A program made the position numbers and the translations under genes. A stretch of 64,000 nt of DNA from an uncultured Hoeflea sp. (GTDB lineage Bacteria > Pseudomonadota > Alphaproteobacteria > Rhizobiales > Rhizobiaceae), in the NCBI RefSeq assembly GCF_947501405.1, contig NZ_CANMVK010000004.1, forward strand, positions 1 through 64,000, given 5' to 3'. The notes beneath the pieces were generated by a model. It worked only from the letters and a program-made list of their open reading frames with translations, was not told where the DNA came from and searched no databases. Positions within the stretch are counted from its first letter, which is position 1. Each line of letters starts with the position of its first letter. Positions 31,099 through 32,887 of the stretch are shown here, piece after piece.

Positions 31099-31839
31099 TC
31101 AAAGCCGTTCGGCCATTTGCTGCGCAGCATGCGTAATCAGAGCTTGATCCGTTCCGCCTATAAAGAGAAACGCGAAACCGTCCTTTTCCCAATATGCGGC
31201 TGCCATGCCTTCCAACCTGGCAACGGAAACGTCGGATCTGCTCCCGCCTTCGCTTTTTATGACGCACAGCGCCACGGGGTCGCCTGTTGGGCTGAGATAC
31301 GCCAACTGGACAAGCGGCCTCCCATTGTAGCCAAGAATTTGGCCGCGTTTGAAATCAAGATTGCTGACGTGTTCTGCTTTGGAAACGTCGTACCCAAGCG
31401 TCGCGCTGAGGGCTGAAAGGTCGGCGGCGGTGGCATCGGGATCGGCGACCTCATCTGAGAGCGTCCCGTTAACGTAAAGCGCCTGGTAGGCCGCGACATA
31501 GTCCATCCAGCCAGATGGTTGTGATGTGCGCAATGACATCAAGCCAGCGCCCAAGATCAGGCCCAAAACGAGACTTGCCGCCAGAGCGAGACCTTGCCTG
31601 CCCCGACTTGTCTTCGCAGGTTTGCTCGCGGGCAGCTCAGGCATGGCCGGCGCAACATCAAGCAGGCTGTCGAAAGCCTCATTCAGGCCATTGGTGGCCA
31701 AGTGCAACGACGCCAGCCTTTCGGCCAGGACAGCATCTGAGCGCAGAGCATGTTCAATTGCCCCCTTGGTAGACGGGTCTACCTCCTTGTCGATGTAGGC
31801 AGTCAAGACCTCATCACTGAAACAATGTGGCTCGGTCAT
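31099..31839 (-). CDS. Membrane anti-sigma factor
   Basis: This 246-residue protein has an N-terminal cytoplasmic anti-sigma-like domain (SDEVLTAYIDKEVDPSTKGAIEHAL), a single membrane helix near residues 83-104 (LALAASLVLGLILGAGLM) and a periplasmic C-terminal domain. Its ATG overlaps the stop of the ECF sigma gene by 4 bases, the normal arrangement for a sigma/anti-sigma pair. No HxxxCxxC zinc motif is seen, so control by a zinc-thiol switch is unlikely. The periplasmic signal is unknown. Confidence 0.8.
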   Translation of the reverse strand: MTEPHCFSDEVLTAYIDKEVDPSTKGAIEHALRSDAVLAERLASLHLATNGLNEAFDSLLDVAPAMPELPASKPAKTSRGRQGLALAASLVLGLILGAGLMSLRTSQPSGWMDYVAAYQALYVNGTLSDEVADPDATAADLSALSATLGYDVSKAEHVSNLDFKRGQILGYNGRPLVQLAYLSPTGDPVALCVIKSEGGSRSDVSVARLEGMAAAYWEKDGFAFLFIGGTDQALITHAAQQMAERL

Positions 31840-32363
31840 CCTGTCCTTACGTCCTCATCTTTCATACGACTGCTCACGGTTTTGCGCGCTGCTGCCAACC
31901 TGCTCATGACGGTTCCGACCGGTATATCCAGGATTTCGGCAACTTCCGCGTATTTGAAGCCTTCTACATAAGCCAGAAGAACACATGTTCGCTGCGCTTC
32001 AGGCAGCTCGTTTACCGTCTGTAACACCTCGCCGAAGAATATATTCGTTTCCGCCGACATGTTTGTGTCTGGAATGTCAATGTCCTCGATGGGCTGCAGC
32101 CCACCGCCACGTCGCACTGCGGTGGCGCGCAGTTCATTGAGCCAGATCCGATGAGCCATGCGGAACAGCCAGCGATCCAGAGCGGTTCCGGCTTCGAATT
32201 TTTCGTGGTTTTCCAAGGCGCGGAGGCAAGTGGCCTGTGCCAGATCGAAGGCCGCATCACGGTTCGACGTTAGGACAAGCGCGCAACGCCAGAGGCGCGG
32301 AAAAATCGTCGGTAGACCTTCGCGAACCTCCCGTTCGGAACTTTTTTTGTCGAAGATGCGAAT
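31836..32363 (-). CDS. ECF sigma factor lacking a canonical start codon
   Basis: The frame shows sigma region 2 (IFPRLWRCALVLTSNRDAAFDLAQATC, then LDRWLFRMAHRIWLNELR) and region 4 (LPEAQRTCVLLAYVEGFKYAEVAEILDIPVGTVMSRL), so an ECF sigma of normal length (about 175 residues) is expected. Homology-like coding extends well upstream of the first TTG (32216), but there is no ATG, GTG or TTG before the frame's upstream stop. I place the start at ATT 32363, which has AAAGG nine bases upstream; CTG 32369 is an alternative. A sequencing error or a decayed start cannot be excluded. Confidence 0.7.
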   Translation of the reverse strand: MRIFDKKSSEREVREGLPTIFPRLWRCALVLTSNRDAAFDLAQATCLRALENHEKFEAGTALDRWLFRMAHRIWLNELRATAVRRGGGLQPIEDIDIPDTNMSAETNIFFGEVLQTVNELPEAQRTCVLLAYVEGFKYAEVAEILDIPVGTVMSRLAAARKTVSSRMKDEDVRTG

Positions 32364-32440
32364 ATTCAGGGGCCTTTGGGTGTTCTCACGATGCAGTGCC
32401 GCTACTGGAGCGCGGCCTCGTGCAACTTAGGGAGAGAATG

Positions 32441-32887
32441 ATGAAAAGAAAACTGTTTTCAATGATCGCAACGGTCGGTCTGACAGTTAGCGGGCCTGTG
32501 CTCGGACAGGGATTGCCTTCGGCGGAGGGTGCCAGTGTCTACTTCGTGAATCTCGAGGATGGCGCGACCGTGTCAGGTCCGGTCAAGGTGGTGTTTGGCT
32601 TATCCGGTATGGGCGTTGCGCCCGCCGGAACGGAGAAGGAAAATACAGGGCACCACCATCTGTTGATCAACCGTCCGCCGTTGGGTGAAGGTGAAGATGG
32701 CACCGACGAGCTTCTCTACGGTCTGCCTGCAGACGACAACCATATGCACTTTGGGGCCGGTCAGACGGAGGTATCACTCGATTTGGCACCCGGCACACAC
32801 ACCCTTCAACTGGTTCTGGGGGACATGAACCACGTTCCACACTTAAAGCCCATCATGTCCGAGGTCATTACGATTACCGTGGAGTAG
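32441..32887 (+). CDS. Exported DUF4399 protein
   Basis: This 148-residue protein has a signal peptide (MKRKLFSMIATVGLTVSGPVLG) and a DUF4399 domain with ASVYFVNLEDGATVSGPVKVVFGL, the histidine cluster GHHHLLIN and DNHMHFGAGQTEV, and a late GDMNHVPHLKP block. The histidines suggest metal binding, but no activity is established to my knowledge. It starts 77 bases from the ECF sigma gene, divergently, and is a likely target of that sigma factor. ATG 32441 or the ATG directly before it may be used; GGGAGAG lies upstream. Confidence 0.75.
   Translation: MKRKLFSMIATVGLTVSGPVLGQGLPSAEGASVYFVNLEDGATVSGPVKVVFGLSGMGVAPAGTEKENTGHHHLLINRPPLGEGEDGTDELLYGLPADDNHMHFGAGQTEVSLDLAPGTHTLQLVLGDMNHVPHLKPIMSEVITITVE

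Follow-up and report, generated by a model that had tools for sequence, protein, structure and literature searches.

The minus-strand frame at 31836-32426 of the window, the 64,000-nucleotide stretch of uncultured Hoeflea sp. DNA analysed here, is predicted to be an intact ECF sigma factor gene of the stress type that is the first of a sigma/anti-sigma pair and starts at a non-AUG isoleucine codon. We give this reading a probability of about 0.75 on the basis of sequence comparison. The codon itself is probably AUU 32363, with AUC 32357 as a distinctly less likely second choice (Table 1).

The frame is open from stop to stop over 196 codons. The original prediction had described sigma-region sequence lying upstream of the first usual start in a frame devoid of any earlier one, and this description was borne out. 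The first ATG, GTG or TTG is TTG 32216 (residue 51 of the queried protein), while region 2 begins at about residue 23, and homology with the best relatives sets in at about the ATC codon 32357. The stretch from the upstream stop to the conserved N terminus lacks a canonical start. Pfam models for sigma regions 2 and 4 (PF04542, PF08281 and PF04545) and the NCBIfam model TIGR02937 all score above their cut-offs, and the presence of both regions identifies the product as an ECF (group 4) sigma factor.

Table 1. Coordinates of features at the sigma factor locus (SD, Shine-Dalgarno; codons counted from the Arg of the RLW core)
Feature	Position	Strand	Remarks
ECF sigma factor CDS if AUU 32363 is used	31836..32363	-	175 codons + stop; regions 2 and 4; AAAGG
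AUU, most likely start, codon -22	32361..32363	-	SD dG -7.2; relative L190 has ATG there
AUC, second candidate start, codon -20	32355..32357	-	GTG in sister L032; SD dG -2.35 at standard spacing
AAAGG, Shine-Dalgarno-like site for AUU 32363	32373..32377	-	nine bases ahead of ATT; dG -7.2
TTG, first canonical start in frame	32214..32216	-	inside region 2; SD dG 0 at standard spacing; not favoured
Putative anti-sigma factor	31099..31839	-	ATG overlaps sigma stop (ATGA)
DUF4399 protein gene, divergent	32438..32887	+	PF14347, E 1.2e-34
CGAATA, putative -35 box of divergent ECF26-like promoter	32359..32364	+	overlaps sigma start
GTGTT, putative -10 box of divergent promoter	32380..32384	+	N15 spacing; orientation inferred

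Recurrence of start-less loci among relatives

The host genome comprises 4.45 Mb in 11 contigs; other genomes of its family have sigma rows that cluster with named Rhizobium rows, which makes Rhizobiaceae its probable family. Relatives were gathered by alignment-based searches, which provided at least 80 named loci together with loci of further genomes; the order-level search matched 202 of 397 genomes at E 1e-30, and at E 1e-50 matches were found in 10 of 385 genomes for the class-level search and in 13 of 23 for one family. Once duplicates among the matches listed had been removed, the family comprised 115 rows by score, and 80 rows formed the set of other ECF loci. Analysis with the same script found the frame between the upstream stop and codon -11 to be free of NTG in 12 of the 115 family loci as compared to 0 of the 80 other ECF loci, the 12 rows including close kin (four Kiloniella-type and four Pseudomonas/Serratia) and one broken copy, L193. 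When only codons -27 to -11 are considered, loci without NTG number 30/115 and 1/80, the former count taking in Rhizobium-type rows with an ATG further upstream. A maximum-likelihood tree of the 115 rows places the window beside Jannaschia marina with 100/95 support. The start-less label requires seven changes on this tree, indicating that the trait recurs. In the clade to which the window belongs most rows are not start-less, and a non-canonical codon is conserved there only partly. The broken sigma copy L193 comes from an alphaproteobacterial genome and carries an in-frame TGA.

The gammaproteobacterial sample consisted of 68 distinct loci, counted from 73 identifiers after dropping duplicates and L275 (in-frame stops, score 32); two further loci with broken frames, L227 and L306, were kept out of these counts. 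In one gammaproteobacterial family the gene was present in 61 of 392 genomes and 27 of 154 genera. It also occurs on plasmid records from Pantoea, Cronobacter and Klebsiella aerogenes. The searched family appears to include Serratia sp. Ag1, for which L299 and the named locus L070 are the same row. The start position is occupied by ATC in 53 loci, ATT in 13, ATA in one and GTG in one, and never by ATG; a non-canonical codon is thus conserved across species in 67 of the 68. SD sites precede the position, with a mean dG of -10.1 over the sample. No NTG lies between the upstream stop and the ATC/ATT position in 39 of these loci, or between the stop and the core in 32, and an in-frame stop stands 0-2 codons 5' of the start position in ten (as examples of such bracketing, TAA-ATT in L242 and TGA-AAA-ATC in L233). 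An NTG occurs within eight codons upstream in 12 loci, among them L238 (ATG at -17) and L263 (ATG at -21), and in several of the 12 this NTG is within the GGAGG site. Support is stronger for the predicted family-wide AUC or AUU start of the gammaproteobacterial genes than for any particular codon in the window. In L227, a sigma copy with frame breaks on a Pseudomonas silvicola plasmid, ATT is found where relatives have ATC.

Choice between AUU 32363 and AUC 32357

The AAAGG that had been noted nine bases 5' of ATT 32363 is placed exactly as described. Its aligned spacing of 5, combined with a dG of -7.2, makes this codon the best start in the window by SD spacing. A ribosome-binding site ahead of the non-canonical codon, a feature of sigR-like control, is seen in sequence both here and in the gammaproteobacterial loci (mean -10.1). 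Candidate CTG codons have little SD support (dG about -2.3). The proposal that ATT serves as the start is further supported by its being in frame in all ten start-less rows with the motif described below, and by L190 of the same clade, in which codon -22 is ATG and codon -20 is ATC.

Comparison of start classes points in the same direction. The SD match at aligned spacing 3-8 of the ATT has a mean of -7.67 in start-less rows (n=10) and is weaker in rows with NTG at -20 (mean -4.74, n=22, p=0.0026) or at -18 (mean -5.16, n=33, p=0.035), p values that ignore kinship. The ATT is in frame in 10/10 start-less motif rows versus 15/22 and 18/33 in these two classes, and a second count gave 11/11 start-less rows versus 34/57 (p=0.012, again ignoring kinship). 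The ten start-less rows of the SD comparison include five of Kiloniella type, two with an NTG further upstream (L057 and L156) and the broken L193; L044 and L046 lie outside its motif window and were not counted. In L046 the motif ATT is out of frame and an ATA is in frame, and in L154 and L155 a stronger SD-like match sits at spacing 11-16.

Five Kiloniella-type species have a 1-nt indel between AAAGG and ATT, with GAAAGGCC unchanged and the upstream sequence diverging, and across codons -19 to -1 their variable columns number 0, 4 and 9 at codon positions 1, 2 and 3. The combination of an indel with coding-like variation from -19 suggests that the Kiloniella-type frame opens somewhere from the indel to about codon -19, an interval in which the near-cognate codons are ATT and ATC.

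AUC 32357 would be one base from the ATG of relatives, with ATT 32363 present merely as part of a divergent -35 box. This is an unlikely, but not negligible, alternative. Codon -20 is ATG, GTG or TTG in 18 of the 33 rows of the clade that contains the window (ATC in 8, another codon in 7) and is GTG in the sister locus L032 (Jannaschia marina, support 100/95); on this point AUC is favoured over AUU. The ATC is also kept in the five Kiloniella-type rows. Its SD match is weak at standard spacing, however, and the -7.2 site sits at an aligned spacing of 11 from it. Moreover, codon -20 is TGG, TTT or CGC in start-less relatives, and L132 and L190 also have ATC at -20 yet carry an ATG elsewhere. 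AUU 32363 is therefore retained as the probable start.

In a Rhizobium-type clade, all 17 rows have GGAGG followed by ATC or ATA at the corresponding place and also carry upstream NTG codons, mostly an ATG near -50. Codons -50 to -16 of six Rhizobium-type rows (L043, L045, L048, L052, L128 and L137) contain a conserved ATG (MxVA...FPAYSR) and then a TATAGT stretch and an apparent hairpin, judged by eye, ahead of GGAGG-N5-ATC/ATA; the -50 codon and AUC/AUA are both candidate starts in these rows.

A putative divergent promoter motif over the sigma start

A slightly loosened AACACC-N14-TATTCG motif lies over the start in 58 of the 115 loci as compared to 0.02 expected from single-base shuffles. 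Its plus-strand reading is CGAATA-N15-GTGTT, which occupies 32359-32384 (+) in the window and matches the ECF26 promoter at 5/6 of the -35 bases: the S. meliloti rpoE1 operon promoter is listed as GGAATA-N15-GTGTC (PMC6180224 Table 1), and the cross-species ECF26 consensus as -35 GGAATA and -10 GT (PMC6180224). Of 63 loci with the motif, 45 have a divergent ORF of 100 aa or more whose start falls within the 30-90 nt range set for the distance to the motif (37-78 nt in these loci); without the motif, a loosely comparable ORF was counted in 16 of 52 loci. The promoter match and these divergent ORFs indicate that transcription of the divergent gene is the most likely role of the motif, and the DUF4399 gene is a probable target of the sigma factor. 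Conservation of ATT-CG is explained by its location in the putative divergent -35 box. Thus, conservation of the ATT alone is no evidence for translation, because it is shared with a conserved promoter motif, but the SD and frame differences between start classes do count as sequence-level indications of translation.

The same motif could instead be the sigma gene's own promoter and give rise to a very short or leaderless mRNA, as might be suggested by one group of relatives with ATG 6-8 nt after TATTCG and often little SD. This is improbable, since the opposite-strand reading matches a mapped ECF26 promoter (PMC6180224) and a divergent ORF is near the motif in the 45 loci cited above; in the window, a start site set by such spacing would also fall 3' of both ATT and ATC. 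It was this reverse-strand match that told against a leaderless sigma mRNA made from AACACC-N14-TATTCG. For the -18 group itself (L006, L117, L138, L139, L067 and others, with ATG about 6-8 nt past TATTCG), leaderless translation is possible, the ATG position tracking the motif to within about a base.

A scan of the window's own genome with AACACN-N13-15-WATTCG gave 16 matches versus 2 for a backward control pattern. Five of the 16 have TATTCG and two fall in the sigma gene. A second motif copy within this gene, AACACC-N13-TATTCG on the opposite strand at 32023-32047 (+), may be due to chance.

Gene decay, sequence error or a shortened protein

Decay of the gene, or an erroneous sequence that hides a true gene with a canonical start, is highly improbable. 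Single-base changes would be enough to make a canonical start, and no close relative of the window copy was found in 17 other genomes of the genus (best E 1.7e-28). Against this, the conserved frame is full-length and the start-less condition is found in several lineages. A specific form of this explanation, raised alongside the original prediction, was an indel error in the A/T run at 32342-32348, which is seven A on the minus strand. One shifted frame reaches a TGA upstream and contains no NTG past that stop, and the other yields only GTG AGA ACA CCC AAA GGC CCC TGA; the earlier observation that other frames also lack a start was therefore upheld, whereas the indel was excluded as the source of the missing start, the run being kept as Lys-Lys codons in relatives such as L136 and L040. 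An isolated sequence error is unlikely given both the absence of rescue by a frame shift and the distribution of start-less loci (12/115 versus 0/80).

That translation yields nothing but a shortened protein begun at TTG 32216, where the frame has its first canonical start, is the least likely explanation of all. Such a protein would lack an N-terminal part of region 2 that is conserved in relatives, the TTG is not preceded by an SD site at standard spacing (dG 0), and this explanation is at odds with the stop just 5' of AUC/AUU that closely brackets the start in ten gammaproteobacterial relatives.

Proposed mechanism and comparison with known systems

The location of 31099-31839, together with annotated neighbours (VDZ69055.1, for example), leads us to infer that it encodes the anti-sigma factor; it has one hydrophobic stretch, judged by eye, and gave no match in Pfam or NCBIfam. 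An NTGA overlap of sigma and anti-sigma genes is found in 152 of 193 loci (not deduplicated), with an SD ahead of the overlap (mean -9.1).

The initiator tRNA would read the isoleucine codon, AUU or AUC, with the help of AAAGG. As a weak start disfavoured by IF3, this codon could keep the sigma factor below its anti-sigma factor, by analogy with sigR, while the anti-sigma factor, having its own ATG and SD, would be made at least as well. Released sigma factor may then fire the divergent ECF26-like promoter ahead of the DUF4399 gene. With the same trait occurring in many enterobacterial relatives, the weak start codon would seem to act as a brake built into this sigma factor. We tentatively suggest, at slightly less than even odds, that this alpha- and gammaproteobacterial sigma/anti-sigma family retains AUC, AUU or AUA as a regulatory start, and that the codon, under IF3, sets the sigma to anti-sigma ratio and couples a stress response to the state of initiation, in convergence with Streptomyces sigR.

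The nearest precedent is the Streptomyces sigR-rsrA pair (PMC5472188). The GTC start of sigR is repressed by IF3, and a canonical start leads to overproduction of SigR relative to RsrA, which is normally in excess (PMC5472188). The window locus, as read here, resembles this pair in joining an ECF sigma factor to an anti-sigma factor that can be made on its own, in a non-canonical start maintained in different species and in a ribosome-binding site that is conserved (PMC5472188). They differ in sigma family, phylum and codon (GTC/GTT for sigR, AUC/AUU/AUA here), and IF3 repression and anti-sigma excess are experimental for sigR (PMC5472188) and would apply here by analogy. A second likeness is to infC, whose start is ATT in E. 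coli and ATC in Streptomyces and is discriminated against by IF3; unlike the window gene, which encodes a sigma factor, infC encodes IF3 and is autoregulated (PMC5472188). The S. meliloti ECF26 factors RpoE1, RpoE3, RpoE4 and RpoE6 have a downstream anti-sigma gene, a GGAATA-N15-GT promoter and a divergent or adjacent target (PMC6180224, PMC3511301); the window has a putative anti-sigma gene, a putative promoter and a probable target in the like arrangement, its ECF26 likeness being one of promoter and gene layout. In contrast to the window gene, the starts given for these factors in the cited sections are only ATG or GTG (PMC6180224, PMC3511301), with rpoE6 and rpoE7 natively starting at GTG (PMC6180224).

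Significance and gammaproteobacterial gene neighbourhoods

Starts outside ATG, GTG and TTG are uncommon; infC is called a rare well-characterized case, to which sigR was added (PMC5472188). Among open-licence PMC papers, searches turned up no AUC or AUU start for a sigma factor from proteobacteria. The predicted start of the window gene would extend non-canonical-start sigma factors to an AUC/AUU variant. If true, a further sigma family would use a start of this kind, outside the phylum of Streptomyces and in genera related to E. coli, which would suggest that weak start codons are a repeated solution for holding sigma below anti-sigma and would make this testable in laboratory strains. There is also a practical side. 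Among eight annotated plasmid records, the start is placed at AUC in one (WP_032805196.1), five codons upstream in one and 5-34 codons downstream in six; sigma proteins with AUC or AUU starts thus probably carry wrong annotated starts elsewhere.

Gammaproteobacterial copies are often located behind a tetratricopeptide or cytochrome b gene. In Cronobacter a cytochrome b gene lies ahead of the sigma/anti-sigma pair, and in L230, L232, L233 and L235 (Cronobacter and Pantoea plasmids) a YceI-family gene follows the pair, hinting at a shared membrane-redox function.
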